Part shown: piece by piece, positions 6,496-56,928 of the stretch
Position numbering within the stretch: the first letter of the stretch is position 1
Layout of the letters: each line of letters begins with the position of its first letter
Source: Erythrobacter sp.
GTDB lineage: Bacteria; Pseudomonadota; Alphaproteobacteria; Sphingomonadales; Sphingomonadaceae
Reading direction: 5' to 3'
Assembly (NCBI GenBank): GCA_024642565.1
Contig: JAHEAV010000010.1
Span: forward strand, 1 to 64,000
DNA: 64,000 nt
Translations under genes and position numbers: made by a program
Notes under the pieces: generated by a model
Database searches by the model: none
Seen by the model: only the letters and a program-made list of their open reading frames with translations
Told to the model about the DNA's origin: nothing

Positions 6496-6563
6496 AGCGG
6501 CTTTGCACCCTGATGGACAGCCCGATTGACAGTTTGCACTGTCTGCCCCAATTCACGCGGCCC

Positions 6564-8263: not shown

Positions 8264-8284
8264 GGCCTCCACCTTTGCGGCCGG

Positions 8285-8501
8285 GGTTACACAAGTGACA
8301 CATCCAACAAAGGCTGTCCGCCATGTTATCCTTATGAATTATATGCGGATTCTACATTTGGACGTCACAACAGTGCGGCCCGCAAAATCGGCCATTTTTG
8401 TCCGATAGGCGCAAGACGATCCTGCGCCTTGAGCCGCGAGTAAGACCAACAATGGGAAAGAGCCGCCAGAAGAATAGCGGCCAAACGGCGTGTAGGAAAA
8501 T
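8285..8501. repeat. intergenic element, copy 1 (convergent metW/fghA gap)
   Basis: This gap of 275 bp has no credible gene. It contains an 18-mer (8285-8302) matching 15 of 18 bases of a block at 27512-27529, then CCGCCATGTT (8318-8327), and at its far end an exact 12-mer GTGTAGGAAAAT (8490-8501). The last 57 bp align without a gap to the end of the second copy. Both copies sit between convergent genes. It could be an intergenic repeat family or a small RNA gene. Confidence 0.45.
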
Positions 8502-8538
8502 GGGGTTAACGCCCTCGATTGGATTACTTCAACCCCGT

Positions 8539-9369
8539 TTACCCCAACCGCTCCGCGTGCCAGCGGATGTGGTCCGCCATGAAGCTTTCGATGAAGTAAT
8601 AGGAATGGTCGTAACCTTCCTGCATCCGGATCGTGGCCGGGATGCCGGCTTTTTTACAGGCGAGGGCGAGCAGGCCGGTTTTTAGCTGATCGGTCAGGAA
8701 ATTGTCGGCTGTGCCCTGGTCCACCAGCAGGTCCGGCAGCCGCGCGCCGCTGTCGATCAGGGCGACCGCGTCATAATCGCGCCAGGCCGCTTTGTCCGGC
8801 CCGAGGTAGCCGCCCAGCGCCTTTTCGCCCCAGGGGCAATTGAGCGGGCTGGTTATCGGCGCGAAGGCGCTCACGCTTTTGAAGCGGTCCGGGTTGCGCA
8901 GTGCGATTGTCAGCGCGCCGTGGCCGCCCATGCTGTGCCCGGTGATGCCCTGACGGCCCATATCGGCGGGGAAGTTTTTCGCAATCAGCGCGGGCAATTC
9001 GCGTTCGATATAGCTGCGCATCCGAAAATTCTGCGCCCAGGGTTCCTGCGTCGCATCGACATAAAAGCCTGCGCCCTTGCCGAAATCATAGGCATCATCA
9101 TCCGGCACATCATCGCCTCGGGGGGACGTGTCTGGCGCAATGAAGATCACTCCATGCTGCGCACAGGCGGCGCGGTAGCCGCCTTTCTCGGTCACATTGG
9201 CATGGGTGCAAGTGAGGCCGGAAAGATACCACAGCACCGGCAATTTTGTGCCTTCGGCATGGGGCGGCACATAGACCGAAAAATTCATATCGGTGCCGGT
9301 TTCGGCGGAGGCATGGGAATAAACCCCCTGCACCCCGCCGAAACTCAGGTTTGTAGAAAGTGTTTCCAT
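8539..9369 (-). CDS. fghA: S-formylglutathione hydrolase
   Basis: 276 residues from the ATG at 9369. The esterase D family is recognised by WYLSGLTCTHANVTEKGG (48-65), APDTSPRG (78-85), the nucleophile elbow GHSMGGHGAL (Ser146), and the terminal catalytic YDHSYYFIESF. It hydrolyses S-formylglutathione to formate and glutathione, the second step of glutathione-dependent formaldehyde oxidation. It shares the strand with adhC, with one VOC gene between, so the three form an operon. The formate produced could feed the FdsGBA formate dehydrogenase encoded near 48-54 kb. Confidence 0.95.
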   Translation of the reverse strand: METLSTNLSFGGVQGVYSHASAETGTDMNFSVYVPPHAEGTKLPVLWYLSGLTCTHANVTEKGGYRAACAQHGVIFIAPDTSPRGDDVPDDDAYDFGKGAGFYVDATQEPWAQNFRMRSYIERELPALIAKNFPADMGRQGITGHSMGGHGALTIALRNPDRFKSVSAFAPITSPLNCPWGEKALGGYLGPDKAAWRDYDAVALIDSGARLPDLLVDQGTADNFLTDQLKTGLLALACKKAGIPATIRMQEGYDHSYYFIESFMADHIRWHAERLG

Positions 9370-9379
9370 CAATCGGGGC

Positions 9380-9757
9380 TTAGCCCATCCGGTGCAGCGC
9401 GCACAGTTTGTTGCCATCCGGATCGCGCAGATAGGCAAGGTAGAGGCTGCCCATGCCGCCGGTGCGCACGCCTGGCGGATCTTCGATTGCCGTGCCGCCA
9501 TTGGCCGCGCCGGCGGCATACCATGCGTCCGCCTGTTCAGGGCTCATCGCAAGGCCGATGGTGCAGCCATTGCCGGCGGTTGCGGGATTTCCGTCGATCG
9601 GCTGGGTGACGATGAAGATACCGCCACCATGCATATAGATAAGCCGGCCCTTGTCGTCCGTTATGCCTTCCTTGCCGCCCATGGCCTTGAAGGTGGCATC
9701 GTAAAATGTCTTGGACCGGGCAATGTCATTCGATCCGACCATCATGTGACTGTACAT
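9380..9757 (-). CDS. VOC superfamily (glyoxalase-like) protein
   Basis: 125 residues starting at the ATG at 9757, preceded by AAGGAGAG as a strong Shine-Dalgarno sequence. The N-terminal HMMVGSNDIARSKTFYDATF and the C-terminal YLRDPDGNKLCALHR are the two beta-alpha-beta modules of the vicinal oxygen chelate fold. Lying between adhC and fghA with 10-22 bp gaps, it is probably cotranscribed for formaldehyde or aldehyde-glutathione handling. Similar VOC genes are common in such loci. Metal ligands are not complete enough to assign glyoxalase I activity. Confidence 0.8.
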   Translation of the reverse strand: MYSHMMVGSNDIARSKTFYDATFKAMGGKEGITDDKGRLIYMHGGGIFIVTQPIDGNPATAGNGCTIGLAMSPEQADAWYAAGAANGGTAIEDPPGVRTGGMGSLYLAYLRDPDGNKLCALHRMG

Positions 9758-9779
9758 TTCGACTCTCCTTGTTGGTAAT

Positions 9780-10886
9780 TCAGTAGACAACAACGCTGCG
9801 GATGCTTTCACCGGCGTGCATCAGGTCGAAACCCTTGTTGATTTCATCCAGCGTCAGGACATGGGTGATCATCGGATCGATCTGGATTTTCCCGTCCATG
9901 TACCAATCGACGATCTTGGGCACATCGGTGCGCCCCTTGGCGCCGCCAAAGGCTGTGCCGCGCCAGTTGCGCCCGGTCACCAGTTGGAATGGGCGGGTGG
10001 AGATTTCCTTGCCCGCTTCGGCCACGCCGATGATGATGCTGGTGCCCCAACCTTTGTGACAGCATTCGAGCGCCTGCCGCATCACATCGGTATTGCCGGT
10101 GCAATCGAACGAATAATCGGCCCCGCCGTCCAGCATGTTGACCAGATGCGCAACCACATCGCCGACATCTCTGGGGTTCACGAAATCGGTCATGCCGAAT
10201 TTGCGGCCCCATTCTTCGCGGTCCGGGTTGATATCGACCCCGACGATGCGGTTCGCGCCAGCCATCTGCGCGCCTTGCAGCACGTTGAGGCCGATCCCGC
10301 CAAGGCCGAACACCACCACATTATCGCCGGGTTTGACCTGCGCGGTATTGACCACGGCACCAACCCCGGTGGTGACCCCGCAACCGATGTAGCAACTGGT
10401 CTTGAAGGGTGCATCCTCGCGGATTTTCGCGAGGGCGATTTCGGGCAGTACCGTGAAATTCGAAAAGGTGCTGCAGCCCATGTAATGGAAAATCTGCTGG
10501 CCCTTGTAGCTAAAGCGGCTGGTTCCATCGGGCATCAGCCCCTTGCCTTGCGTTTCACGAATGGCGCTGCACAAATTGGTTTTGCCCGACAGGCACATTT
10601 TGCATTGGCGGCATTCGGGCGTGTACAGCGGAATCACATGATCACCCGGCTTTACCGAAGTCACGCCCGCGCCCACTTCGCGCACGATACCGGCGCCTTC
10701 GTGGCCCAGGATGCTGGGAAAGATCCCTTCGCTATCGAGCCCGTCCAGCGTGTAGGCATCGGTATGGCAGATGCCCGTCGCCATGATTTCCACCAGCACC
10801 TCGCCCGCCTTGGGGCCTTCCAGGTCCAGTTCGACAATCTCTAGCGGCTTCTTGGCCTCGAAGGCTACGGCGGCGCGGGTTTTCAT
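9780..10886 (-). CDS. adhC: S-(hydroxymethyl)glutathione dehydrogenase / class III alcohol dehydrogenase
   Basis: A 368-residue zinc MDR. Catalytic zinc ligands are Cys40 in [12 protein letters not shown] and His62-Glu63 in GHEGAGIV. The structural zinc lobe has Cys92, 95, 98 and 106 ([16 protein letters not shown]). The Rossmann motif [15 protein letters not shown] and [10 protein letters not shown] show NAD specificity. The length and the [13 protein letters not shown] segment match class III enzymes. It oxidises the spontaneous adduct of formaldehyde and glutathione to S-formylglutathione, which the downstream fghA product hydrolyses. It is the first gene of the operon, with a 43-bp gap to the gene upstream. 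Confidence 0.96.
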
Positions 10887-10929
10887 GAGGGGTATCTACT
10901 CCGGTGGGTTGTACATGTTACCTACGGTC

Positions 10930-30874: not shown

Positions 30875-30889
30875 GTATGTGTGACATAC
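30875..30889. promoter_or_regulatory. palindromic operator site 1 (perfect copy)
   Basis: GTATGT-GTG-ACATAC is a perfect 15-bp palindrome, 91 bp upstream of the PQQ dehydrogenase ATG. A TTGACC hexamer at 30854-30859 is followed after 16-17 bp by TATGTG inside the palindrome, so the site would overlap the -10 element. It is the best copy of a motif present in six gaps of the aromatic island. Confidence 0.7.
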
Positions 30890-30979: not shown

Positions 30980-33091
30980 ATGCGGCGCAGATCGCAATTA
31001 ATCATGCTGTTGGCTTCGCTTGTTGCCGGTTGCTCGCAGGCACCGGTTTTTGACAAGAATGCACCGGGCGCGGTTGACGAAGCGCGGCTGCTGGCCGCCG
31101 ATTCCGATGCTGACAACTGGTTGGCGTTCGGCCGTACGCCGGATGAACAGCGCTTCAGCCCGCTGGACCAGATCAATCCCCAGTCGGTCAAGGATCTTGG
31201 CATGGCATGGTCGGCCGATATGGACACGGCGCGCGGTCAGGAAGCCACGCCGCTGGTAGTCGACGGGGTTCTCTATGTCTCGACCGCATGGTCGATGGTC
31301 AAAGCCTATGATGCGGCAACCGGAAAACCGATCTGGTCCTATGATCCCGAGGTGCCACGCGATACCTTGTCCCGCGTGTGCTGCGATGCGGTCAATCGCG
31401 GTGTGGCGATTTATCACAACAAGGTTTTCGTCGGCGCGCTGGATGGGCGGCTGATCGCGCTGGATGCGGCAACCGGCAAACCGGTATGGTCGAAAGTGGT
31501 GGTTCCGGATCAGAAGAACTATTCGATTACCGGCGCACCGCGGGTCGTGAAGGGGCGCATCATCCTTGGCAGCGGCGGTTCGGAGTATAAGGCGCGCGGT
31601 TCGATTGCGGCCTTCGATCCCGAAACAGGCGAGGAGGTTTGGCGCTTCCACACGGTTCCGGGCAATCCGGCTGACGGGTTCGAAAATGCGGCAATGGAAA
31701 AGGCCGCCAAGACCTGGACCGGCAAGTGGTGGGAACTGGGCGGCGGTGGATCGGTGTGGGATTCGATCAGTTACGACCCGGACTTCAATCTGATCTATTT
31801 CGGCACCGCCAATGCAGAGCCGTGGAACCCGGCGCCCATGGGCCGCACTGGTGACAATCTATACACCAGTTCGATTGTGGCGGTGAATGCCGATACCGGG
31901 GAATATGTCTGGCATTTTCAGGAAACGCCGGAAGATCGCTGGGATTTCGATTCCAACCAGTCGATCATCCTGGCGAATCTGGAGTTCGGCGGAAAGCCGC
32001 GGCGGGTCATCATGCATGCCCCCAAGAACGGCTTTTTCTATGTACTCGATGCCAGGACCGGTGAATTCCTGTCGGGCAAGGCGTTCACCTATGTCAACTG
32101 GGCGAGCGGCCTTGATCCCAAGACCGGATATCCCGCCATCAATCCCGAAGCCCGTTATGAAAAGACCGGCAAGCCATTCCTTGCGGTTCCCGGGGCAGGG
32201 GGCGCGCACAGTTGGCAGTCGATGTCCTTCAGCCCGAAGACGGGATTGGTCTATATTCCGGTGCAGGAAGTGGGTTTCCCCTACGCTGCCGAGAAAGACT
32301 GGAAGCCCAGCTCCATTGGTTTCCAGACCGGCATAGACAGCGCCACAACCGCCATGCCGGCCGATGCCAAAGTGCAGGCCGAAGTGAAAAAGGTAACTAC
32401 CGGTACGTTGCTGGCGTGGGATCCGGTGGCGCAAAAGGCGGTCTGGTCGGTGAAATATCCCGGACCCTGGAACGGCGGAACTCTGGCCACGGCGGGTAAT
32501 CTGGTTTTCCAGGGCACGGCGGGCGGACAATTTGTTGCCTACAGCGCCGACAAGGGTAAAAAACTGTGGTCCTTCCCCACCCAGAGCGGCGTGATCGCGT
32601 CCCCCATCACCTATCGGATCAAAGGGGAACAATATGTTGCCATTCTGGTCGGCTGGGGCGGCATCTGGGATGTGGCGACTGGCGTTCTTGCCGGCAATTC
32701 GGGCAGCACCCGCAATATCAGCCGCCTGATGGTGTTCAAGCTGGGGGCCAAGGGATCGCTGCCGCCACCGCCACCTCTGGCGCAAATGCCCCTCGACCCT
32801 CCGCCGGTCACGGGTACTCCCGAGCAGATTGCCGAGGGTGCGCGCAATTACGGGCGCTACTGTTCGGCGTGCCACGGCGATGCGGCGGTGGCAGGGGGGC
32901 TGAATCCGGACCTGCGCCACAGCGGCACCTTGAACGATGCAGCGGTGTTCAAATCGATCGTGATTGATGGCATATTGCAGCATCAGGGAATGGTTTCGTT
33001 CCGATCCGCCCTGAAGCCGAAAGATGCCGATGGGATCCGTCATTATGTGATCAGCCGCGCGAATGAGGACAAGAAACTCCACGCGAAATAG
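30980..33091 (+). CDS. PQQ-dependent quinohaemoprotein alcohol dehydrogenase, lipoprotein
   Basis: 703 residues from the ATG at 30980, with GGGAG nine bases upstream; an ATG at 30974 is too close to it. A lipobox LVAGC (Cys18) predicts a lipoprotein. The eight-bladed propeller has the vicinal disulphide Cys134-Cys135 (SRVCCDAV), which is typical of PQQ alcohol dehydrogenases, and several W-motifs (TGEEVWRFHTV, DTGEYVWHFQ). The C-terminal cytochrome c domain has YCSACHGDA (Cys628, Cys631, His632), so this is a type II or III enzyme. It oxidises an alcohol in the periplasm; a lignin-derived aromatic alcohol is a guess from context. PQQ synthesis genes are not in the window. Confidence 0.9.
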   Translation: MRRRSQLIMLLASLVAGCSQAPVFDKNAPGAVDEARLLAADSDADNWLAFGRTPDEQRFSPLDQINPQSVKDLGMAWSADMDTARGQEATPLVVDGVLYVSTAWSMVKAYDAATGKPIWSYDPEVPRDTLSRVCCDAVNRGVAIYHNKVFVGALDGRLIALDAATGKPVWSKVVVPDQKNYSITGAPRVVKGRIILGSGGSEYKARGSIAAFDPETGEEVWRFHTVPGNPADGFENAAMEKAAKTWTGKWWELGGGGSVWDSISYDPDFNLIYFGTANAEPWNPAPMGRTGDNLYTSSIVAVNADTGEYVWHFQETPEDRWDFDSNQSIILANLEFGGKPRRVIMHAPKNGFFYVLDARTGEFLSGKAFTYVNWASGLDPKTGYPAINPEARYEKTGKPFLAVPGAGGAHSWQSMSFSPKTGLVYIPVQEVGFPYAAEKDWKPSSIGFQTGIDSATTAMPADAKVQAEVKKVTTGTLLAWDPVAQKAVWSVKYPGPWNGGTLATAGNLVFQGTAGGQFVAYSADKGKKLWSFPTQSGVIASPITYRIKGEQYVAILVGWGGIWDVATGVLAGNSGSTRNISRLMVFKLGAKGSLPPPPPLAQMPLDPPPVTGTPEQIAEGARNYGRYCSACHGDAAVAGGLNPDLRHSGTLNDAAVFKSIVIDGILQHQGMVSFRSALKPKDADGIRHYVISRANEDKKLHAK

Positions 33092-33161
33092 GTTGATCTG
33101 GCCCCTGAGCGCTGGCCGTTTGGGCCGGGAAATTCTTGCCAGAGGCCGTCGAATATGGTTT

Positions 33162-33176
33162 GTATGTAACACACAC
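33162..33176. promoter_or_regulatory. palindromic operator site 2
   Basis: GTATGT-AAC-ACACAC differs from the perfect palindrome at one base. It lies 56 bp before the aldehyde dehydrogenase ATG, in the gap after the PQQ dehydrogenase gene, which suggests that this gene has a separate promoter. Confidence 0.6.
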
Positions 33177-33232
33177 TAATAATGCCGCCTGAGTCGCATT
33201 TCGGGCGAGCCTGTAATCGAGAGGATTTTCCG

Positions 33233-34744
33233 ATGAACGACCTGTCACCGACCCATTTTCAGCAGCGTGAATATTCGGCGGCAGCGAAGGCCTTTCTGGC
33301 GCGTACGCCGCAGCTTTTCATCAATAACGAATGGGTCAATTCGTCGGCGGACGCGACGATTCCGGTAGAAGATCCATCCTCCGGCAAGGAAATCGGCCGC
33401 GTGGTCGATGCGTCGGACAAGGATGTTGATCGGGCGGTTTCTGCGGCCCGGGTCGCGTTCGATGATGGCCGGTGGAGCGGTCTGCCCCCGATCCAGCGCG
33501 ATCGCACGATGAACAGGCTGGCGGACTTGCTCGAAGCCAATGCCGATCTGTTTGCCGAACTGGAAGCAATCGACAATGGCAAACCCAAGGGCATGGCCGC
33601 TGCGGTTGATGTGCCGGCAGCCGCCAGCCAGATCCGCTTCATGGCCGGCTGGGCGTCCAAGGTGAATGGCGAAGTCATCCAGCCATACACCATGCCGACC
33701 GGCGCCGTGTTCGGTTATACCTCACGCGAACCGGTGGGCGTCTGTGCCCAGATCGTGCCGTGGAACTTCCCGTTGCTGATGGCGTGCCTCAAGATTGCGC
33801 CAGCGCTGGCGGCGGGCTGCACGATTGTGCTGAAACCGGCGGAGCAGACCTCGCTTACGACACTGCTCCTTGCCGATATGGTGGCGCAGGCCGGTTTTCC
33901 GGCCGGAGTGGTCAACATTATTACAGGCAATGGCCACACAGCGGGTGACCGTATGGTCAAGCATCCCGACGTGGATAAGGTTGCCTTCACCGGTTCGACC
34001 GAGATTGGCAAACTGATCAACCGTAATGCCACGGACACGCTCAAGCATGTCACGCTGGAACTGGGCGGCAAGTCGCCGGTGGTCATCATGCCCGATGTTG
34101 ATGTTGCCGAAGTGGCACCCGGTGCAGCCGGGGCAATTTTCTTCAATTCAGGTCAGGTCTGCGTTGCCGGGTCGCGTCTGTTCGCGCACAGTTCGATCTT
34201 TGACAAAGTGATTGAAGGTGTGGCGGCAACCGGCCCGTTCTGGGGCCCGAGGCCGTCGCTCGATCCCGAAGGCCATATGGGACCGCTGGTGTCGAAGGAA
34301 CAATTCGACAAGGTCATGGGCTATATCGAAGCGGGCAAACGCGATGGCGCAAGTGTGGCCATGGGCGGCGATGCGCCAGCCACCGATGGCTATTATGTGA
34401 ACCCGACCATCCTGGTCGACGTGAACCCGCAAATGAGCGTGGTGCGTGAAGAAATCTTCGGGCCGGTCGTCGTGGCACAGCGGTTTGATGATCTTGACGA
34501 AGTGGCCAAGGCGGCCAACGATACATGCTATGGTCTGGGCGCTGGCGTGTGGACCCGCGATGTGGCGACCATGCACAAACTCGCTTCGAAGATCAAAGCC
34601 GGCACGGTCTGGGGCAATTGCCACGGCGTGATTGATACCGCACTGCCATTTGGCGGTTATAAGGAATCAGGTGTTGGCCGGGAACAGGGACGCAATGGCA
34701 TCGAAGCCTATCTGGAAACCAAGACCGTCATTATCCAGATGTAA
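33233..34744 (+). CDS. NAD-dependent aldehyde dehydrogenase, probable aromatic aldehyde substrate
   Basis: 503 residues from the ATG at 33233. ALDH catalytic residues are Glu276 (LELGGKSPVV) and Cys310 (GQVCVAGSRLF), with VPWNFPLLM and FTGSTEIGK for NAD binding. The sequence resembles phenylacetaldehyde/betaine-aldehyde dehydrogenases more than the shorter LigV/Vdh group. In this island it could oxidise vanillin or 4-hydroxybenzaldehyde released by the hydratase-lyase, or the aldehyde made by the PQQ enzyme or by the decarboxylase at 42 kb. It is the only ALDH in the island. Confidence 0.88.
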   Translation: MNDLSPTHFQQREYSAAAKAFLARTPQLFINNEWVNSSADATIPVEDPSSGKEIGRVVDASDKDVDRAVSAARVAFDDGRWSGLPPIQRDRTMNRLADLLEANADLFAELEAIDNGKPKGMAAAVDVPAAASQIRFMAGWASKVNGEVIQPYTMPTGAVFGYTSREPVGVCAQIVPWNFPLLMACLKIAPALAAGCTIVLKPAEQTSLTTLLLADMVAQAGFPAGVVNIITGNGHTAGDRMVKHPDVDKVAFTGSTEIGKLINRNATDTLKHVTLELGGKSPVVIMPDVDVAEVAPGAAGAIFFNSGQVCVAGSRLFAHSSIFDKVIEGVAATGPFWGPRPSLDPEGHMGPLVSKEQFDKVMGYIEAGKRDGASVAMGGDAPATDGYYVNPTILVDVNPQMSVVREEIFGPVVVAQRFDDLDEVAKAANDTCYGLGAGVWTRDVATMHKLASKIKAGTVWGNCHGVIDTALPFGGYKESGVGREQGRNGIEAYLETKTVIIQM

Positions 34745-34819
34745 TGCGATTTGGCGGGATCCGGAACTGCGATGGAGGGGGCCGGAACCCTGCCAGACGA
34801 ATGTTGACGGGACCCGATT

Positions 34820-35692
34820 ATGCCAATTGACCTGACGAAGATCCGCGCAATCGACGTGCATGTACACGCAGAAGTATCATGCCATGATCCGGAAGATCCG
34901 GTCATGGGCAAATATTTTGACGCGGCCAGCGCCTATTTCAAGGCCCCGCGAGAGCGCCCGAAAATCCCGGAAATCATCGATCTTTATCGTGAACAGCAGA
35001 TCGCCTTCTGCCTGTTCACCGTCGATTGCGAAAGTGCGATCGGGGCCAAGCGGGTGAGCAATTACGAGATAGCCGAATTTGCCGCGAAAAACGATGACAT
35101 CTGCATGGCATTTGCGTCCATCGACCCGCACAAGGGTAAATTCGGTGCGCGTGAAGCGCGGGACCTGATCGAGAATTACGGGGTCAAGGGCTTCAAGTTT
35201 CACGGCATCATGCAGGATGCGCATCCCGCAGACCGGATGGCCTATCCGATTTATGAAGTGATTGCCGAATATGGTCTGCCCGCCATTTTCCACACTGGCC
35301 ATTCCGGAATGGGTACGGGAATGCGCGGCGGCGGCGGCGTGCGCCTGAAGTGGGGGCAACCGATCCTGATCGATGATGTGGCCGTCGATTTTCCCGACAT
35401 GAAGATCATTCTTGCCCACCCGTCCTGGCCATGGGTGGATGAAAGCCTGTCGATGGCCCTGCACAAGGACAATGTGTTTATCGATTTATCAGGTTGGAGC
35501 CCCAAATATTTCCAGCCGCAAATCATTCAATACGCCAATGGCCAGTTGAAAAAGAAGATGCTGTTCGGATCGGACTTTCCGTTGATCCATCCGGACAAAT
35601 GGATCGAAGCGGCCAAGCAGGTCGGTTTCAAGGACGAAGTCATGCCCGGCATCATGAAAGATAATGCCGCCCGGCTTCTGGGGCTAAGCTGA
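34820..35692 (+). CDS. amidohydrolase family 2 protein (ACMSD-like TIM barrel)
   Basis: 290 residues. The metal site begins at IDVHVHAE (His14, His16), continues with a barrel histidine in IFHTGHSGMG and LAHPSWPW, and ends with GSDFPLIHPDKW. This is the ACMSD/gamma-resorcylate decarboxylase/LigI-type fold. Homologues in ferulate loci of Agrobacterium have been described as 4-hydroxyphenyl-beta-ketoacyl-CoA hydrolases, and other members are decarboxylases such as LigW, so hydrolysis or decarboxylation of an aromatic acid is possible. It follows the ALDH by 75 bp in a likely operon. Confidence 0.8.
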   Translation: MPIDLTKIRAIDVHVHAEVSCHDPEDPVMGKYFDAASAYFKAPRERPKIPEIIDLYREQQIAFCLFTVDCESAIGAKRVSNYEIAEFAAKNDDICMAFASIDPHKGKFGAREARDLIENYGVKGFKFHGIMQDAHPADRMAYPIYEVIAEYGLPAIFHTGHSGMGTGMRGGGGVRLKWGQPILIDDVAVDFPDMKIILAHPSWPWVDESLSMALHKDNVFIDLSGWSPKYFQPQIIQYANGQLKKKMLFGSDFPLIHPDKWIEAAKQVGFKDEVMPGIMKDNAARLLGLS

Positions 35693-35728
35693 CCACTAAC
35701 CACCTGTTTGCCTGAAATGAGGATTATT

Positions 35729-36748
35729 ATGCGTTCCTGGACATTGCCTGCCGGCTGTCAGTCGATTGACCAGCTTGAATTGAACGAAGGGCCGGCACCG
35801 GTTGCCGGGCCCGGTGAAATCCTGATCCGGGTCAAGGCCTGTTCGCTCAACTACCGCGACCAGTTGATCCCCAAGGGACTCTATTTCGGCGGCGCGATCA
35901 CCGCTGCCGGCACGCCGCTGTCCGACGGTGTGGGGACGGTTGAGGCGGTGGGTGCCGGGGTAACCGAGTTTGCCCCGGGCGACCGGGTGGCTGGCACATT
36001 CTTCCAGGAATGGCGGGATGGGCCGCCCACGCCTTTCATGGGTGATGCGTTGGGTGCGCCGCCAGCCAAGGGGATGCTGGCGGAATATGTGGCGCTGCCT
36101 GCACACGGCGCGGTCAAGATCGCGGAAAGCCTGACTTTTGCCGAGGCCGCGACGCTGCCTTGCGCCGGGGTCACGGCCTGGAACGCACTGACGTGCGGTA
36201 TCCGTCCGATCAAGGCCGGGGACAGTGTGTTGCTGATCGGCAGTGGCGGCGTGTCGTTACTGGCGTTGAAGCTGGCCAAGGCAGCTGGCGCGCGGGTGAT
36301 TGCGACATCTTCGAGCGATGAAAAACTGGCCCGGCTCAAAGCCATGGGCGCGGATGAATTGATCAATTATCGCCAAGTGCCGGAATGGGGTGCCAAGGCC
36401 GCCGAACTCGCGGGCGGCGGTGTTGATCACGTGGTCGAAGTTGGCGGTCCCGGCACGCTCGGCCAATCGCTGCAGGCGGTCGGATTCGGTGGGGAAGTGG
36501 CGCTGATCGGCGTGCTTTCGATGCAAGGAGACAGCAGCCCGATGCCGCTCATGGTCAAGGGGGCTTCGCTGCGCGGGATTTTCGTGGGATCGGCGCAAAT
36601 GGCAAAAGACCTCCACGCCTTCATCGATCACCATGGAATCAAGCCCCATGTCGACCGTGCCTTCGACTTTGCCGATGCCAAGGCGGCTTATGAATATCAG
36701 TCATCGCCGGATCTGTTTGGCAAAGTCGTCATCACGCTGGACAGTTGA
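35729..36748 (+). CDS. zinc-independent MDR oxidoreductase (quinone oxidoreductase-like)
   Basis: 339 residues from the ATG at 35729, with GAGG seven bases before it. The medium-chain dehydrogenase fold is shown by NYRDQLIPKGLY, GAGVTEFAPGDRVAG and the Rossmann motif DSVLLIGSGGVSLLALKLA. The structural-zinc cysteine lobe is absent and the catalytic zinc ligands are not evident, so it resembles the quinone reductase or enoyl reductase branch. It might reduce an aryl ketone or alpha,beta-unsaturated intermediate. It sits between the amidohydrolase and alpha/beta hydrolase genes with gaps under 40 bp. Confidence 0.83.
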   Translation: MRSWTLPAGCQSIDQLELNEGPAPVAGPGEILIRVKACSLNYRDQLIPKGLYFGGAITAAGTPLSDGVGTVEAVGAGVTEFAPGDRVAGTFFQEWRDGPPTPFMGDALGAPPAKGMLAEYVALPAHGAVKIAESLTFAEAATLPCAGVTAWNALTCGIRPIKAGDSVLLIGSGGVSLLALKLAKAAGARVIATSSSDEKLARLKAMGADELINYRQVPEWGAKAAELAGGGVDHVVEVGGPGTLGQSLQAVGFGGEVALIGVLSMQGDSSPMPLMVKGASLRGIFVGSAQMAKDLHAFIDHHGIKPHVDRAFDFADAKAAYEYQSSPDLFGKVVITLDS

Positions 36749-36754
36749 TCGGCT

Positions 36755-37492
36755 GTGGCAAGTTTCATTCTGATTCACGGCTCGTGGCACGGCGGATGGT
36801 GTTTTGATAAGGTCCGCGAGATTCTGGAAGCTGCGGGGCATGAAGTCATCGCGCCAGACTTGCCGGGTATGGACGGTAGCGAAGCCGAATTGCGCGCGGC
36901 CACTCTGGACCTATGGGCGGATTTCGCGGCCGGACTGTGCCGGGGCGCCGCGCAAAAGCCGGTGATCCTTGCCGGGCATAGCCGCGGCGGGCTCGTTGTG
37001 AGTCAGGCAGCCGAGCGGGCGGCGCAGGACATTGATGCACTTGTCTATATCTGCGCGATGATGCTGCCAAACGGCATGTCACGGGCCGAATTCAAGGTGT
37101 TGGAAGGCCCCAATCCGGCCTTTGATGCGATCATTTCGCCGGTGGCGGGCGGGGCTGGCACAATCGTGGACACCGCGGCAGCTCCGCAGGTCTTTGCCCA
37201 GCTGTCACCGCCTGATCTGGTGGCCGCAGCGATGGACCGTCTGGCAATCGAACCGCACGGGCCGCGCGCCACCCCGCTGCAGCTGAGCGAAGCCAATTTC
37301 GGCAGTCTGCCGCGCAGCTACATCGAATGCACCCATGACCGGACAATCCCGATTGCCAGCCAGCGCAAAATGCAACATTTGGTGCCCGGCGCGCAGATTG
37401 CCACACTGGAATCCGATCATTCGCCGTTCTTGTGCAAGCCGGCAGAACTCGCGGATCTGCTGATCGCGGCGGCGGACGCGGTCAGTCCTTGA
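36755..37492 (+). CDS. alpha/beta hydrolase (methylketone synthase/salicylate esterase-like), copy A
   Basis: 245 residues from a GTG start at 36755. The oxyanion loop [14 protein letters not shown] starts at residue 5, the nucleophile elbow is AGHSRGGLV, and the catalytic histidine lies in ESDHSPFL near the C-terminus, as in the plant MES/HNL and bacterial EstC group. It starts 6 bp after the MDR gene and overlaps purU, which is on the other strand, by 11 bp. A similar protein is encoded at 40.7 kb. Substrate is unknown; an ester or beta-keto acid in the pathway is plausible. Confidence 0.83.
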
Positions 37493-38342
37493 ACACTACG
37501 GTCTTGTGGCCGTTGACAAAAACCCGATCATCCAGATGCGCCCGCACGGCGGTGGCCAGAACCCGGCGCTCGATATCCCGGCCCTTGCGAACCAGATCTT
37601 CGGCGGCATCGGCGTGGCTGATCGCTTCGACATCCTGATGGATGATGGGGCCTTCATCGAGATCGGCGGTGACATAATGGGCCGTTGCCCCGATCATCTT
37701 CACCCCGCGATTGAACGCCTGATGATACGGCTTTGCGCCCTTGAAGCCTGGCAGGAAACTGTGGTGGATATTGATGCAGCGGCCTGACAGGAAGCTGGCC
37801 AGATCATCTGACAGGATTTGCATATAACGCGCCAGAACCACCAGTTCGGCACCCGTGCTGGTCACGAGTTCCTTGATCTGCGCTTCCTGCTGCGGTTTGG
37901 TGTCCTTGGTAATCGGGAGATGATGGAAGGGAATATCGCCGACCAGCGAGATATTGAGCGCATCGGCCGGATGGTTGCCGATTATCCCGACCACCTCCAT
38001 GTTGAGCTCCCCAATCCGGTTGCGGTACAGCAGATCGCCCAGGCAATGGTCGAATTTGGATACCATCATCAGCACTTTTCGCCGTGCTGCCGCGCTGCGC
38101 ATTGACCATTGCATGGCAAAGGCATCGCCCAGCGGGGCAAATTTTTCCTGCAGTTCCGGGAGCAGTTCGGGCGATTCCATTTCAAACGCCACACGCATGA
38201 AAAATTGCCGTGATTCGGTATCGTTGAACTGCTGCGAATCCAGAATATTGCCGCCATTGTCGGCCAGAAGGCGGGCAACATTGGCCACCAATCCGGGCTG
38301 ATCCGGACAGGAGATCGTGAGAATCTGCCGATTGTCTGACAT
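37482..38342 (-). CDS. purU: formyltetrahydrofolate deformylase
   Basis: 286 residues from the ATG at 38342, with GGGAGG upstream. The N-terminal ACT domain ([20 protein letters not shown], ~6-85) is followed by a formyltransferase domain with [11 protein letters not shown], the catalytic [20 protein letters not shown], and DEGPIIHQD. PurU hydrolyses 10-formyl-THF to formate and THF. Sitting divergent from ligM and sharing its operator, it probably recycles THF and drains methyl carbon from demethylation to formate rather than serving purine synthesis. Confidence 0.94.
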
Positions 38343-38369
38343 TTGCGAGCCTCCCAACTCGAATATAAT

Positions 38370-38384
38370 GTTTGTGTTACATAC
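38370..38384. promoter_or_regulatory. palindromic operator site 3 (purU/ligM gap)
   Basis: GTTTGT-GTT-ACATAC has one mismatch to the consensus palindrome. It lies 27 bp before the purU start and 51 bp before the ligM start, so one bound dimer could control both divergent promoters. Confidence 0.6.
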
Positions 38385-38411: not shown

Positions 38412-39839
<1,428 letters not shown>

Positions 39840-40751: not shown

Positions 40752-41420
40752 ATGGCCGATTATGTGTTGGTGCACGGCGCGTGGGGTGGCGGGCACCTGT
40801 TTGGCCGGCTGGGCGATGATCTGCGCAAAGCCGGTCACCGCGCGTTGATTGCGCAACTGACCGGATTGGGTGCACGAACGCATCTGGTATCGCCCGCAAT
40901 CGACCTGGCGATGCATATCGACGATGTCGTCAAACAGATCGAGGATGCCGATTATACCGATCTGGTCCTGGTTGGGCACAGCTATGGGGGAATGGTGATT
41001 TCCGGTGTAGCCAGCCGGATTGGCGGGCGAATTGCCCATATCATCTATCTCGATGCCTTTCTGCCGCAAGATGGCCAATCGTTGTGGGACATGGTTGGCG
41101 ATTTTGAACGCGACCACTACATTTCCGGCCAGCGGGAAACTCCGGGACTGGTCACCCCCTTGCCCGGTCTCGACCCGACCGGGATGACCCATCACCCCTT
41201 GCTGACCCTTATCCAGCCGGTGAAATTCAGCGGCAAGGAACAGGAGATTTCCCGCCGCAGCTATATTTATGCCAGCGGGTGGGATCATTCGCCCTTTGGC
41301 CCGTCCTATGGGCGGGCGAAGGACGATGCTGCCTGGCAGACACATGTCCTTGACTGCGGCCATTTCGTGATGGGCGAACGGCCGGATGAACTGCGCGCGA
41401 TCCTGCTGGACGCGGCTTAA
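40752..41420 (+). CDS. alpha/beta hydrolase, copy B
   Basis: 222 residues from the ATG at 40752, one base after the metF stop. It belongs to the same MES/EstC-like group as the gene at 36.7 kb: YVLVHGAWGGGHLF, the nucleophile elbow VGHSYGGMV, and a C-terminal histidine in DCGHFVMGERPDEL. Sequence identity with copy A looks moderate, so it is a paralogue rather than a recent duplicate. Its stop codon shares bases with that of the convergent VOC gene (TTAA). Role in demethylation is unknown. Confidence 0.83.
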   Translation: MADYVLVHGAWGGGHLFGRLGDDLRKAGHRALIAQLTGLGARTHLVSPAIDLAMHIDDVVKQIEDADYTDLVLVGHSYGGMVISGVASRIGGRIAHIIYLDAFLPQDGQSLWDMVGDFERDHYISGQRETPGLVTPLPGLDPTGMTHHPLLTLIQPVKFSGKEQEISRRSYIYASGWDHSPFGPSYGRAKDDAAWQTHVLDCGHFVMGERPDELRAILLDAA

Positions 41421-41815
41421 CCTCCAAAGAAATTAAGCTCCAGCAAGATGCCGTTGGGATCTTCGGTGAATATCTGGTCGAGATTGATCGCATCGACCCG
41501 GTTGAGTTTGTAGTCGGCGCCGCGTGCATCGAGCCGGTCAATCATTTCGGCAAAGCCGTGACAGCGCAGCGCGACATGATGGATCGAACCGGTCGGTCCG
41601 GCCACCACATCCCGTTCATAGGTGCGCGGACAATCCAGGCTGTTGATATGGAGGATCGCCCGGTCCGCGTGGTCGTACATCCATTGGGCATTGGTTGGCG
41701 TCAGCGGCGGCGGTGCATTGCGCCGCTGCAGGCCCAGAAGGCTGGAATAGAAGGCGCAGCTGGCATCAATATCGGGGGTGATGATGTTGATATGGTCAAG
41801 CGCTTCAACCTGCAT
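41417..41815 (-). CDS. VOC superfamily protein (extradiol dioxygenase/glyoxalase-like)
   Basis: 132 residues, a single VOC module pair. Potential metal ligands are His at VEALDHINIITPD (~His8), His-His in SIHHVALRC and Glu in ILLELNFFGG, which match the spacing of type I metal-binding VOC enzymes. It is too short for a two-domain extradiol dioxygenase. It is divergent from the decarboxylase gene and shares operator site 4, so it probably acts in the same route. Substrate is unknown. Confidence 0.8.
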   Translation of the reverse strand: MQVEALDHINIITPDIDASCAFYSSLLGLQRRNAPPPLTPTNAQWMYDHADRAILHINSLDCPRTYERDVVAGPTGSIHHVALRCHGFAEMIDRLDARGADYKLNRVDAINLDQIFTEDPNGILLELNFFGG

Positions 41816-41980: not shown

Positions 41981-43543
41981 ATGAGTGAAGTCACTGTACG
42001 CGAGGCCACGATTGCCGTGCTTGACCGGTTGGGGATGACCACGATCTTCGGCAATCCCGGATCGACCGAACTGCCGATGTTCCGCGATTTTCCCGAGCAT
42101 TTCAGCTATGTGCTGGGGCTGCAGGAATCGGTCGTTCTGGGGATGGCCGATGGCTATGCGCAGGCCACACGCAACGCGGCGCTGGTGAATTTGCATTCGG
42201 CGGCGGGCGTGGGTCATGCGCTGGGCAATCTGTTTACCGCTTATAAGAATCAGACGCCACTGGTTGTTACCGCTGGCCAGCAGGCTCGCTCGATCCTGCC
42301 CTTCGAACCTTTCCTGTTTGCCGAACGGCCAACCGAATTCCCTCGGCCCTATGTCAAATGGGCGGTCGAACCGGCACGCGCGCAAGATGTGCCGGGGGCT
42401 ATCGCCCGCGCCTATCATATCGCGATGACGCCGCCGTGCGGTCCGGTGTTTGTCTCGATCCCGATCGATGATTGGGACCAAATGTGTACACCGCCGGCCG
42501 CCACCCGCATGTTTGCCCGCACCTGCGGCGATGCCGCCGCGCTGGGCGAAGTGGCGGATGCTCTGGCCCATGCGCGCAAGCCGGTCTTTGTTGTCGGGGC
42601 GCAGATTGCGCTCGACGATGCATGGGACGCGGTGATTGCGCTGGCCGAACGGCACAACGCACCCGTGTGGGTCGCGCCCATGAATGCGCGCGTATCCTTT
42701 CCGGAAGATCACCCGTTGTTCCAGGGCTTCCTTGACGCCTTTCGCGAACGGATCGTCGCTGCGCTGGGTGAAACGGATCTGGTGCTGGTGCTAGGCGGCC
42801 CGGCCTTCACCTATCATGCCGAAGGCTTTGGCCCGCATGTGCCCGATGGTGCCGCCTTGTTCCAGCTGACAAATGACTCGTCCATGGCAAGCTGGCTGCC
42901 GGAAGGCACGGCTGTGGTAACTGATCTCAAAGCGGGTCTGACCCAATTGCTGGCTGGGCCAGAACCCCGGATGCGCCCGGCAGTGCCTGCAAGGGCAAAA
43001 CCTGCGGCGCTGCCCGATATGCCTTTGACCGATGCCATGGTGATGCAGCGTATTGCTGCCTTGCGTCCGGCAAACAGTGTAATCGTCGAAGAAGCGGCGA
43101 GCAGCCGCGGGGCAATGCATGACCATTTGCCGATTGTGGCAAAGGATGGTTTTTACACCTGTGCCAGCGGCGGGCTTGGGCATGGCCTGCCTGCGGCCAT
43201 CGGTGTGGCTCTGGGCCGCCCCGATGCGCATGTGATCGCCTTGCTGGGCGATGGCGCGACAATGTATGCGGTGCAGGGCCTGTGGTCGGCGGCCAAGCTG
43301 GGGCTCAACATGACTTTTGTGATCGTGAACAACAGCCGCTACGAAGCCCTGCATGTTTTTGGCCGGCATTTCGGTTTGCAGTCGCTGGTAGGAACCGATC
43401 TTTCGGGACTGGACTTTGTGGCGATGGCTGCGGCGCAAGGAGTTGCCGGGGTCCGGGCCGATAGTGTCGAAGCGCTTGATGCCGCCTTATCGGCCGCTTT
43501 CACGTCATCAGGACCAAGGCTGGTGGAGGTGCTGGTTACGTGA
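41981..43543 (+). CDS. benzoylformate decarboxylase homologue (ThDP-dependent)
   Basis: 520 residues. The FGNPGSTELP start (Ser28), LGLQESVVLGMADGYAQA (cofactor Glu49), NLHSAAGVGHA (His72) and FTYHAEGFG (His279) reproduce the catalytic Ser, Glu and two His of MdlC. The ThDP-binding LGDGATMYAVQGLWSAAKLG and VIVNNSRYEALHVF follow. It should decarboxylate an aromatic 2-oxo acid to an aldehyde; with this context, 4-hydroxy- or vanilloyl-formate would be natural substrates, giving an aldehyde for the ALDH at 33 kb. No mandelate racemase or dehydrogenase is present in the window. Confidence 0.88.
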   Translation: MSEVTVREATIAVLDRLGMTTIFGNPGSTELPMFRDFPEHFSYVLGLQESVVLGMADGYAQATRNAALVNLHSAAGVGHALGNLFTAYKNQTPLVVTAGQQARSILPFEPFLFAERPTEFPRPYVKWAVEPARAQDVPGAIARAYHIAMTPPCGPVFVSIPIDDWDQMCTPPAATRMFARTCGDAAALGEVADALAHARKPVFVVGAQIALDDAWDAVIALAERHNAPVWVAPMNARVSFPEDHPLFQGFLDAFRERIVAALGETDLVLVLGGPAFTYHAEGFGPHVPDGAALFQLTNDSSMASWLPEGTAVVTDLKAGLTQLLAGPEPRMRPAVPARAKPAALPDMPLTDAMVMQRIAALRPANSVIVEEAASSRGAMHDHLPIVAKDGFYTCASGGLGHGLPAAIGVALGRPDAHVIALLGDGATMYAVQGLWSAAKLGLNMTFVIVNNSRYEALHVFGRHFGLQSLVGTDLSGLDFVAMAAAQGVAGVRADSVEALDAALSAAFTSSGPRLVEVLVT

Positions 43544-43667
43544 TCGTGGGCTTGGCTCATAATCTGCCGGTGCAAAACCGTTCGACATGCGCGATGCGGA
43601 TCAGTTCTGCCGATGTTGAAGTGCAGGGCCGATCATGCGAAAGGGCGCCCAGCACAAAGGGAACGCT

Positions 43668-44141
43668 ATGATTGCCAACAAAGAAACGCTGGTCCCGACC
43701 ACGCCGCATGTCGAAGGTGATGAGGATATTGGCGAAATCGCCAATATCGTGGGTTTTCATATCCGGCTCGCCCATGGGGCAACCTACCGCCATTTTACCG
43801 AAACATTTGCCGATCTGGATCTGACCCAGAAGCAGGTCTCCGTCCTGTGGCTCATTGGTGATCATCCGGATATCGCCCAGACAGACCTGGCGCAACGTAT
43901 GCGCATGGACCGCGCAACCACCATGGCCATTGTCAACCGGCTGGAAGCGCGCGACTATCTCGTCCGCGGTAAATCCAAAACTGATGGCCGCAAGCAGACA
44001 TTGAATCTGACGGATTCCGGGCAGGAAATGCTGACCGTCGCAAAATCGGCCATCAACGAGCATGAACAATGGCTAAAAAGCCGGTTCACGGACAAGGAAG
44101 TTGAACAATTGATCGAGATGCTAACGCGCATCCACGAATAA
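43668..44141 (+). CDS. MarR-family transcriptional regulator, candidate DesR-like regulator of the island
   Basis: 157 residues from the ATG at 43668, with AAGGGA upstream. The winged helix-turn-helix spans about residues 50-125: LTQKQVSVLWLIGDHPDIAQ, DLAQRMRMDRATTMAIVNRLEARDYLVRG (recognition helix), and the wing KTDGRKQTLNLT. Dimerisation helices flank it. In Sphingobium SYK-6 a MarR regulator, DesR, controls vanillate/syringate demethylation genes. This is the only regulator gene in the island, so it is the best candidate to bind the six palindromes. No copy of the site lies before it. Confidence 0.9.
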   Translation: MIANKETLVPTTPHVEGDEDIGEIANIVGFHIRLAHGATYRHFTETFADLDLTQKQVSVLWLIGDHPDIAQTDLAQRMRMDRATTMAIVNRLEARDYLVRGKSKTDGRKQTLNLTDSGQEMLTVAKSAINEHEQWLKSRFTDKEVEQLIEMLTRIHE

Positions 44142-45483: not shown

Positions 45484-46995
45484 TCAGCCAGCGCGTTCCT
45501 TTGCAAGCTCTGCAATTGCCCGTGCTTGCAAGAGGTGCTTCTGCACTTTGCCGGAGGCTGTCCGGGGAATGGTATCGGTGATCGCCGCAGTCTTGGGCAC
45601 CTTGAATTTTGCCAGTCGGCTTGTGCAATGGGCAATGATGTCTGCGCCCGTCACCGCCCGCCCTGCCACCGGGATGACATAGACCCGGCCCACTTCGCCC
45701 CACCGGTCATCGGGCACACCGACGACCGCGCATTCGGCGACATCGGGCAGTTCGGCGATTGCCGCTTCGACTTCGGCCGGATAGACATTTTCGCCGCCGG
45801 AAATGTACATGTCCTTCTTGCGGTCGACGATGTAAAAATAGCCTTCTTCGTCGCGCACCGCGGCATCGCCGGTCACAAACCAGCCATCGACAAAGGCCTT
45901 GGCCGTCAGTTCGGGTTGGTTCCAGTATCCCATCGCCACGCTCGGCCCGGAAACCAGCAATTCGCCCCGTTCACCGGCGGGCACTTCCGCGCCGGAATCA
46001 TCGACGATCTTGGCCCGAATGGTCATCAGCGGCAAGCCGCAGCTACCCGCTTTGGACAGCATCAGATCAAGTTCGAAGGGCGGAATGGCAAAGTTGCTGC
46101 CCGTCTCCGACATGCCGAACCCTTCGGAAATTCTGACCCCTGCACTAAGATAGCGTTCGCTTTGTGCCTTGGGATTTGGCGCGCCGCCGATTGCCCAGGC
46201 AACGATCTTGCGAAGCTTCTCTGCGTCAAATTCAGGCCGCTGCCACAGGGTCGCTGCCATCTGCGGGACCGAGAAATAATGCGTTACGCCCAGTTTTTCA
46301 TCCGTCATTCGCCTCAGCGTCATTTCCGGATCGAACCCTTCGGAAATCAGGACTGCGCCGCCCGCGAGTAACGGAGTCCGCATCGCCGCCATCAGACCAG
46401 CGGTGTGAAACAGGGGCATGTCGCACAGGAAGGTACTGCTGATGGTCACGGCATTGCCGTGAATCAAATTGGTGCAGCCCCAGAAATTGTTCTGTTCCGA
46501 AAGCATCACCCCTTTCGGCCGTCCGCTGGTGCCGGAGGTGTAGAGCAAGGTTGAAACATCGGTAAAATCCCGGCGGGCCTGAGCTGGCGGCGCGCCACCG
46601 GCTTCGCCGAGGCCCAGCATATCGCCGATCGCGAGTGTTTCTGGCGCATTGTCCGGCGCGGTAAAGGCTTCCTGCATGAACAGGGCCGCCGGCTGACCAT
46701 CATCAACCAGCCCTTCCAGTTCCTTGACGGCCAAACGCCAGTTCAGCGGCATGAAGATCGTGCCGGACCGGATGCAGGCGAACTGCAGGATGGCCATCTC
46801 GGCGCAATTCTTCGACAAACTCGCCAGGCGCTGGCCGCTTTGGGGGCCAAATTTGGCCACGATCCAGGCGGCCAGCCGGTCGATTGCCCGATCAAGTTCG
46901 GCGTAAGTCCACTCCCGCCCAGTGGCGAGATCGACCATCGCGCGCTTGCTGGGCATTGCATCGGCATAAGTGGAAATGGCATCGAGCCTGATCAT
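45484..46995 (-). CDS. AMP-forming acyl-CoA ligase, probable feruloyl/4-coumaroyl-CoA synthetase
   Basis: 503 residues of the ANL superfamily: the P-loop LLYTSGTSGRPKGVMLS, EGFGMSETGS (A5), GWFVTGDAAVRDEEGYFYIVDRKKDM (A7/A8), and the adenylation lysine in IPRTASGKVQKHLL. Three bases separate it from the hydroxycinnamoyl-CoA hydratase-lyase gene upstream, the usual fcs-ech pairing, so it should activate ferulate and p-coumarate. SYK-6 FerA is of the unrelated NDP-forming type, so this island uses a different ligase for the same step. Confidence 0.88.
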   Translation of the reverse strand: MIRLDAISTYADAMPSKRAMVDLATGREWTYAELDRAIDRLAAWIVAKFGPQSGQRLASLSKNCAEMAILQFACIRSGTIFMPLNWRLAVKELEGLVDDGQPAALFMQEAFTAPDNAPETLAIGDMLGLGEAGGAPPAQARRDFTDVSTLLYTSGTSGRPKGVMLSEQNNFWGCTNLIHGNAVTISSTFLCDMPLFHTAGLMAAMRTPLLAGGAVLISEGFDPEMTLRRMTDEKLGVTHYFSVPQMAATLWQRPEFDAEKLRKIVAWAIGGAPNPKAQSERYLSAGVRISEGFGMSETGSNFAIPPFELDLMLSKAGSCGLPLMTIRAKIVDDSGAEVPAGERGELLVSGPSVAMGYWNQPELTAKAFVDGWFVTGDAAVRDEEGYFYIVDRKKDMYISGGENVYPAEVEAAIAELPDVAECAVVGVPDDRWGEVGRVYVIPVAGRAVTGADIIAHCTSRLAKFKVPKTAAITDTIPRTASGKVQKHLLQARAIAELAKERAG

Positions 46996-56913: not shown

Positions 56914-56928
56914 GTATGCGTTACATAC
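56914..56928. promoter_or_regulatory. palindromic operator site 6 (ligK/lig operon gap)
   Basis: GTATGC-GTT-ACATAC has one mismatch. It lies 20 bp before the oxidoreductase start at 56949 and 70 bp before ligK. A TTGCAC hexamer at 56900 followed by TACATA 16 bp later would place the site over the -10 element of the rightward promoter. Confidence 0.65.

Follow-up and report, generated by a model that had tools for sequence, protein, structure and literature searches.

A PQQ dehydrogenase, aldehyde dehydrogenase and amidohydrolase module in Erythrobacter as a shortened sphingomonad operon and a candidate route from beta-hydroxypropiovanillone to vanillate

The DNA analysed here (the window) is a stretch of 64,000 nucleotides from contig JAHEAV010000010.1 of an Erythrobacter sp. 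(assembly GCA_024642565.1). Its open reading frames (ORFs) and family-model matches confirm five consecutive genes, all on the + strand as an earlier note on this DNA had described, leading from a pyrroloquinoline quinone (PQQ)-dependent alcohol dehydrogenase (PQQ-DH) through an aldehyde dehydrogenase (ALDH), an amidohydrolase and a medium-chain dehydrogenase/reductase (MDR) to an alpha/beta hydrolase (Table 1). The set had been thought to match no known lig peripheral pathway. It does have a parallel in a widespread sphingomonad operon, partly published as Saro_2860 to Saro_2873 of Novosphingobium aromaticivorans, of which the module is a shortened form. Beta-hydroxypropiovanillone (HPV) is the three-carbon phenylpropanone left by reductive cleavage of beta-O-4 ethers. 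We consider HPV or its syringyl analogue the most likely substrate of the module, which would oxidise and cleave the side chain, with HPV and PQQ both scavenged; we hold this reading with about even confidence. For the ALDH, whose best NCBIfam model is StyD at a score below that model's cut-off, we prefer the start at 33233 over that at 33182 because relatives' proteins begin with MNE and because of the position of the operator. The amidohydrolase matched no NCBIfam model.

To place the module among its relatives, we used the amidohydrolase, which is present in 57 of 397 family genomes (E 1e-80). Around it, 93 distinct loci were compared, the window included and three duplicates dropped; these are the loci among the matches listed, and presence of a gene in them means a tblastn match at 45% identity (28% for the CoA ligase and the BaeB-type glutathione S-transferase, GST), not an annotation. 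Many contigs are short: 64 of the 92 other loci extend about 8-9 kb to either side. Within 10 kb of the amidohydrolase, PQQ-DH has a counterpart in 49 of these 92, ALDH in 53 (a count that combines two query ALDHs) and ligM in 56. A LigF2/DesD-type GST is found in 52, a BaeA-type GST in 30 and a BaeB-type GST in 30, so named (our c10 and c9 for the BaeA and BaeB types) from gene order and the published S. xenophagum genes, with that region taken as locus L106, and not from sequence comparison. Any etherase-type GST occurs in 56 loci, any lig-type gene in 75, and PQQ-DH together with an etherase-type GST in 39. Reading the GST of the relatives' operon as plain LigF was rejected, as separate GSTs elsewhere in G037 and G055 have another N-terminus, which we take to be that of LigF. 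Since the operon position has been published as both NaLigF2 and DesD, we call it LigF2/DesD-type.

The fullest order, that of L079, has 14 catalogued genes: BaeA, BaeB, CoA ligase, PQQ-DH, ALDH, amidohydrolase, PTP-like, short-chain dehydrogenase/reductase (SDR), LigF2/DesD-type GST, alpha/beta hydrolase, VOC, PurU, LigM and MetF. 'PTP-like' is in part our presumption; the Pfam BLH_phosphatase model passes its cut-off in L005 but not in L079. Counted along these genes, all eight names given in the cited texts for Saro_2873 to Saro_2860 fall at matching places: BaeA (Saro_2873) and BaeB (Saro_2872), shown to be etherase, and LigF2 (Saro_2865; PMC6369299); the PQQ-dependent Saro_2870 and the ALDH Saro_2869 (PMC11323797); DesD (Saro_2865) and DesC (Saro_2864; PMC8091115); and LigM (Saro_2861) and MetF (Saro_2860; PMC12997858). 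By gene count, and not from the sequence of that genome, Saro_2868 would be the amidohydrolase and Saro_2871 the ligase, and Saro_2869 would by position correspond to the window ALDH; our literature search returned no paper on Saro_2867, Saro_2868 or Saro_2871, and the papers listed for RS-type locus tags were unrelated. The window keeps PQQ-DH, ALDH, amidohydrolase, DesC-type hydrolase, PurU, LigM and MetF in this order. Unlike the Saro_2860-2873 run, it lacks baeA, baeB, the LigF2/DesD-type GST and the SDR, adds the MDR gene and carries its CoA ligase elsewhere.

The earlier note had also pointed to a shared operator, and this is borne out. Four sites in the window match GTNTGTGTNACATAC with at most one mismatch versus 0.01 expected, and the three perfect copies lie upstream of PQQ-DH, of ALDH and also of ligM. 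In Sphingobium SYK-6, the MarR-type repressor DesR binds IR-B (GTTTGTGTCACATAC) and IR-M (GTTTGTGTAACATAC) and, as described in the cited text, is released by vanillate and syringate (PMC6888825). The window operators agree with these in 13-14 of 15 letters, in keeping with the proposed link to lignin and vanillate; they differ from the SYK-6 regulon (desB, ligM, desR) in extending to PQQ-DH and ALDH, and those of relatives in extending to baeA-type genes (6 loci). Allowing one mismatch, the whole 2.49-Mb genome has six sites, none of them outside this 85-kb contig, and no match to a reversed control pattern. Across the 93 amidohydrolase loci (1.76 Mb, window included) we counted 54 sites, against 0 for the control. 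Among listed loci that have the gene in question, the operator precedes ligM in 30 of 57, the baeA-type GST in 6 of 30 and ALDH in 4 of 54; further sites lie before C-alpha-dehydrogenase-type SDR genes, and two have no catalogued gene near. The window module thus appears, by its sites, to belong to a DesR-type regulon, and in relatives the site often marks the gene that opens a unit.

The MarR-family gene at 43635 is a candidate for the repressor of these operators. It passes the family model of Saro_0803 (251 bits, cut-off 200), for which the cited text gives the inverted repeat GCAATA-N6-TATTGC, unlike the window operator (PMC10046596); therefore we call the regulator 'DesR-type' only. MarR genes 56-64% alike in L103, L106 and L232 have the operator upstream, that is, three of the seven loci with such a gene. 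Within the module, a second operator falls between PQQ-DH and ALDH, which suggests transcription as two or more units. A single pathway of all five genes was rejected, given a hydrolase at the DesC position and this operator splitting the run. The hydrolase and the MDR gene are probably not part of the side-chain route. The fourth operator in the window (56914-56928) has one mismatch and lies in the region of lig ring cleavage, away from any catalogued gene start. Two further DesR-type operators, each with one mismatch, lie at 67896 and 81166 on host contig C24 (L236), where they coincide with or closely precede TonB-receptor genes. A DesA-type gene and a FAD-linked oxidase occur in the same stretch, and vanillate-regulated uptake of lignin fragments is possible there. 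Promoter and terminator scans yielded about as much as shuffled sequence.

Table 1. Genes and operator sites of the module and its surroundings in the window
Feature	Position	Strand	Basis
PQQ-DH (quinohemoprotein alcohol dehydrogenase, lipoprotein)	30980..33091	+	TIGR03075 above cut-off
Aldehyde dehydrogenase (ALDH)	33233..34744 (ORF open from 33182)	+	PF00171
Amidohydrolase, Amidohydro_2 family; proposed aryl-beta-ketoacyl-CoA hydrolase (CouO/HpeF type)	34820..35692	+	PF04909
MDR-type oxidoreductase	35708..36748	+	Family models; 54-73% counterparts in relatives
Alpha/beta hydrolase, DesC position	36755..37492	+	Family models; gene order in relatives
PurU, formyltetrahydrofolate deformylase	37482..38357	-	Family model above cut-off
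LigM, vanillate/3-O-methylgallate O-demethylase	38436..39839	+	NF047885, 896 bits (cut-off 580)
MarR-family regulator, candidate DesR counterpart	43635..44141	+	Family model
AMP-forming acyl-CoA ligase, candidate amidohydrolase partner	45484..46995	-	Family models; 55-62% to relatives' ligases
DesR-type operator GTATGTGTGACATAC	30875..30889	+	Upstream of PQQ-DH; 0 mismatches to GTNTGTGTNACATAC; 13/15 letters as IR-B
DesR-type operator GTGTGTGTTACATAC	33162..33176	-	Between PQQ-DH and ALDH, upstream of ALDH; perfect; 13/15 letters as IR-M
DesR-type operator GTTTGTGTTACATAC	38370..38384	+	Between purU and ligM; perfect; 14/15 letters as IR-B and IR-M

In the first enzyme of the module, a PQQ beta-propeller domain is followed by a fused cytochrome c domain at the C-terminus (PF13442, with CxxCH at residues 628-632), and the protein carries a lipoprotein signal, the lipobox VAGC at residues 15-18. 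Its closest solved structure by sequence is 1kv9, a type II quinohemoprotein alcohol dehydrogenase (E 1.1e-223). With that class (1kv9, 1kb0, 1yiq) it shares domain order, sequence kinship and a conserved Cys-Cys pair; E202, N278 and D322, which we take to be the metal site, are conserved as well. It differs from the class in its lipoprotein signal and in having Asp for Thr two residues past the catalytic Asp. In the alignment its motif reads WDFD (D322, D324), as in 6zcv, where 1kv9, 1kb0, 1yiq and 8gy2 have WDFT or WDYT. The extra Asp (D-x-D) is described as a sign of lanthanide use in PQQ dehydrogenases (PMC11996626), and on this motif the window enzyme may be of the lanthanide type and use a rare-earth metal. 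The predicted structure was middling (mean pLDDT 72.9) and was not used.

Both metal types occur at this position of the operon. Among the 49 loci with a PQQ-DH at 50% identity or more within the stretch compared, the window included, 17 have Asp (lanthanide type) and 32 have Thr (calcium type). On a PQQ-DH tree of 58 rows, made by a quick method with the motif columns removed, one branch with support 100 splits the two types, requiring 1 change. On the amidohydrolase tree the same label takes 13 changes versus a mean of 14.2 for shuffled labels, and 6 are required even if only well-supported branches are counted; L199 and L203, which are nearly identical, differ in metal type. The single split on one tree and the many label changes on the other indicate that the slot has been refilled many times from two old clades. 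On contig C18 (L005, 7194-11377) there is a paralogous PQQ-DH, 69% identical and also WDFD, with its own ALDH; adjoining the pair is a phosphatase-like gene (PF04273, above cut-off) that resembles the gene after the amidohydrolase in L079.

Such pairs raise the alternative that PQQ-DH and ALDH are a general alcohol-oxidising pair, for aryl or short aliphatic alcohols, that was recruited to the cluster and has no specific connection with the amidohydrolase step. The C18 pair stands apart from the module; pairs of its type recur in L065, L066, L068, L070 and L071 with no counterpart of ligM, ligABC, ligI or ligU in 20 kb (purU is near the pair in two of these five loci); and PQQ dehydrogenases are described as promiscuous in the text cited above for the D-x-D sign (PMC11996626). 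Yet 49 of the 92 listed loci have PQQ-DH no more than 10 kb from the amidohydrolase, and in the window PQQ-DH has a DesR-type operator; we regard this alternative as unlikely.

Kinship of the amidohydrolase with the beta-ketoacyl-CoA hydrolase of a ferulate pathway, put forward in the earlier note, holds up. Over about 290 residues it is 51.5% identical to an annotated 4-hydroxyphenyl-beta-ketoacyl-CoA hydrolase of Rhizobium Q54, whose gene neighbours are a feruloyl-CoA synthase, an enoyl-CoA hydratase and a MarR gene, and 50.2% identical (again about 290 residues) to a Rhodococcus opacus protein adjoining AMP-ligase, SDR and MaoC genes. Its relation to CouO and HpeF was judged through these two homologues, not from the CouO or HpeF sequences themselves, and the name 'CouO-type' is partly our own assumption. 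Five residues, H14, H16, H158, H200 and D252, presumably the metal ligands, are invariant in 34 sequences. The sequence kinship is clear, and the catalysis is proposed by analogy. Structure prediction (mean pLDDT 88) gives the protein a decarboxylase/hydrolase-type fold, with 3irs as the nearest match (Z 27); the comparison places it in the superfamily only, and LigY was not among the fold matches listed. The protein could be a decarboxylase or lactonase of the ACMSD, LigW or LigI kind, as dihydroxybenzoate and 5-carboxyvanillate decarboxylases match the fold at Z of about 21-23. Those structures, however, share only 14-19% identity with it, against 50-52% for homologues in beta-ketoacyl-CoA hydrolase-type clusters, and this alternative is improbable.

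A better placed alternative, though still one we think unlikely, is a coniferyl route, in which PQQ-DH and ALDH would oxidise coniferyl alcohol to ferulate and the amidohydrolase would end a CoA-dependent beta-oxidation of feruloyl-CoA resembling that of Agrobacterium and Rhodococcus. Homologues of the amidohydrolase at 50-62% identity speak for it, two of those examined lying in ferulate-type clusters (L169 and L129); in L129, from Acidovorax, the 62% counterpart adjoins counterparts of the Rhizobium ferulate genes. The cluster of a third homologue, L170, we presume from its composition to be coumarate-type. Of the 92 listed loci, 10 have within 10 kb a gene of the vanillyl-alcohol oxidase (VAO)/eugenol-oxidase type, whose product could convert eugenol to coniferyl alcohol, and the host contig carries a gene for a FAD-linked oxidase further on. 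Within the window, however, no enoyl-CoA hydratase or 3-hydroxyacyl-CoA dehydrogenase adjoins the module, and 56 of the 92 near listed loci have etherase-type GST genes instead. Neither PQQ-DH nor ligM was found in any of 36 more distant loci (60-69% identity, mostly Burkholderiales), among which L129 alone was examined gene by gene. L129 itself (6347-10888; Acidovorax delafieldii, Burkholderiales) holds a ferulate beta-oxidation-type cluster of synthase, hydratase, dehydrogenase and amidohydrolase. Of the substrates named in the earlier note, HPV is put first, and coniferyl-type compounds are kept as a rival.

If HPV is the substrate, the route would run as follows. The periplasmic lipoprotein PQQ-DH would oxidise the terminal alcohol of HPV to vanilloyl acetaldehyde, with its own heme c relaying electrons to the respiratory chain, and the ALDH would take vanilloyl acetaldehyde to vanilloyl acetate; the sequence from alcohol through aldehyde to acid, as first suggested, is supported. 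An acyl-CoA ligase would then form the CoA ester, the amidohydrolase would cleave this beta-ketoacyl-CoA to vanillate and acetyl-CoA, and LigM would demethylate vanillate. A DesR-type MarR repressor would free transcription once vanillate or syringate accumulates, and the host, having no etherase-type GST, PqqC or PqqE, would scavenge HPV and PQQ from its neighbours. All five reactions are inferred from the genes. The ligase, absent from the gene set first proposed, is likely the missing partner of the amidohydrolase, either as the window gene or as its counterpart in the relatives' operon: in L083, L085, L114 and L216, a ligase 55-62% alike to that of the window is found about 4 kb or less from the amidohydrolase, and a CoA ligase of at least 28% identity is within 10 kb in 20 of the 92 listed loci.

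This route has a place to fill. A 2025 paper describes the stretch from HPV to vanillate as incompletely known in N. aromaticivorans, and the text of PMC11837543 states that F199 has no VceA or VceB homologues and that further enzymes 'remain to be discovered'. This gap is matched by an operon that begins with ether cleavage (BaeAB, LigF2), continues with oxidation of the alcohol and the aldehyde, and ends with a CouO-type hydrolase and LigM. The proposal for Rhodococcus GD02 is that HpeE and HpeF first convert the beta-keto acid to a CoA ester and then split this ester into vanillate and acetyl-CoA, and SYK-6 is said in the same text to lack HpeE and HpeF and to use the non-homologous VceA and VceB (PMC9618137). 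HPV is also reported to accumulate transiently in the medium of an N. aromaticivorans ligE-deletion strain given guaiacylglycerol-beta-guaiacyl ether (GGE), which could bring it into contact with a periplasmic oxidase. Locus tags in SYK-6 place hpvZ (SLG_12830), the gene for its HPV oxidase, between ligM (SLG_12740) and desR (SLG_12870). Our literature search found no paper linking HPV with an amidohydrolase; the text of PMC12628177 mentions both, in unrelated places.

Several observations weigh against HPV as the substrate. Deletion of the flavoprotein gene hpvY in N. aromaticivorans JMN123 is reported to abolish growth on HPV though the species has Saro_2870, a result that could be explained by a medium without PQQ or lanthanide. 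Saro_2870, there a putative PQQ-dependent ALDH, is not listed in the cited text as active on dehydrodiconiferyl alcohol (DC-A) or its aldehyde (DC-L), and Saro_2869 is described as oxidising DC-L (PMC11323797); the pair may therefore have other substrates. Since PQQ-DH/ALDH pairs also stand apart from lig genes, the chemistry of the pair may be general. The host genome has two GMC oxidoreductases outside the module that could be HpvZ-like. Etherase-type GSTs occur with no PQQ-DH within 10 kb in 17 of 56 listed loci (for example L055-L058), and the operator precedes PQQ-DH in 1 of 54 listed loci having PQQ-DH, the window itself; at the same stringency the closest relative, L074, has no PQQ-DH operator. 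The window ligase, finally, lies on the opposite strand 8-10 kb from the module, and its identity to the ligases of the operon type and of Rhodococcus is only 28-32%.

The dependence of the host on others concerns both cofactor and substrate. Neither PqqE nor PqqC was found above cut-off in its genome, and the PQQ-DH would therefore need PQQ from outside. PqqC is above cut-off in 7 of the 397 family genomes and in none of the 57 with the amidohydrolase; about one is expected by chance, so this is no evidence of avoidance. Among 118 relatives of the same genus, family and order, 53 have close PQQ-DH homologues and 2 have PqqC above cut-off, and widespread dependence on foreign PQQ among them is possible. 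The host genome also has no LigF2-type GST match at 1e-20, a best BaeA-type match of 28% over 97 residues (the BaeB type was not searched alone) and no close C-alpha-dehydrogenase, its best SDR being 33%. The host would thus use phenylpropanones made by others, and accumulation of phenylpropanones as end-products is described for Novosphingobium MBES04 (PMC10866074).

Around the module, LigA and LigB at 58.8-60.1 kb pass their family models and a DesA-type O-demethylase, above cut-off, lies just past the window end, which makes the contig a lignin-aromatics island. The alpha/beta hydrolase of the module is by position a candidate DesC, with counterparts (48-80%) in 22 of the 92 listed loci; DesC and DesD have been proposed to convert the 3-methylgallate ring-cleavage product 4-carboxy-2-hydroxy-6-methoxy-6-oxohexa-2,4-dienoate (CHMOD) to 4-oxalomesaconate (OMA). 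The MDR gene has a counterpart within 10 kb of the amidohydrolase in 39. PurU would recycle one-carbon units for LigM. Near ligM are a second alpha/beta hydrolase (40752-41420) and a VOC-family protein (41417-41815), with counterparts within 10 kb of the amidohydrolase in 31 and 49 of the 92 listed loci, respectively, and between ligM and the MarR gene lies a benzoylformate decarboxylase-type gene (41981-43543; NF005485, 755 bits, cut-off 493). A C6 match of 32 bases was also recorded.

Taken together, these features sketch, tentatively, a sphingomonad branch of beta-O-4 breakdown that is new to the papers searched, with a periplasmic quinohemoprotein acting on HPV, lanthanide and calcium types exchanging in its slot, and a CouO-type hydrolase with a CoA ligase leading from vanilloyl acetate to vanillate. 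If it exists, lignin turnover would be tied to PQQ and rare earths, and etherase-free bacteria like the window host would live on HPV released by others. As PQQ synthesis seems rare among these bacteria, the quinohemoprotein route would be silent in ordinary laboratory medium, which suggests that growth tests without PQQ could miss one HPV enzyme. For HPV, the analysis offers candidate enzymes of oxidation and of cleavage that can be put to the test. It also suggests that an enzyme of the lanthanide type takes part in lignin catabolism, and the operator signature (54 sites, control 0) can be used to find such operons.

Two known systems lie close to the proposed route. The HPV pathway of SYK-6 (HpvZ, ALDHs, VceA, VceB), together with HpvY, follows the same order of alcohol, aldehyde, beta-keto acid and vanillate. 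HpvY is described as a predicted choline dehydrogenase 39% identical to HpvZ; unlike these GMC-type oxidases, the alcohol dehydrogenase of the window module is a PQQ quinohemoprotein. With HpeE/HpeF and CouL/CouO of Rhodococcus and the hydrolase of Rhizobiaceae, the module shares an amidohydrolase 50-52% identical to homologues from such clusters and the same proposed acid, whereas the window route would be fed by alcohol and aldehyde oxidation and not by acetovanillone carboxylation or ferulate beta-oxidation.

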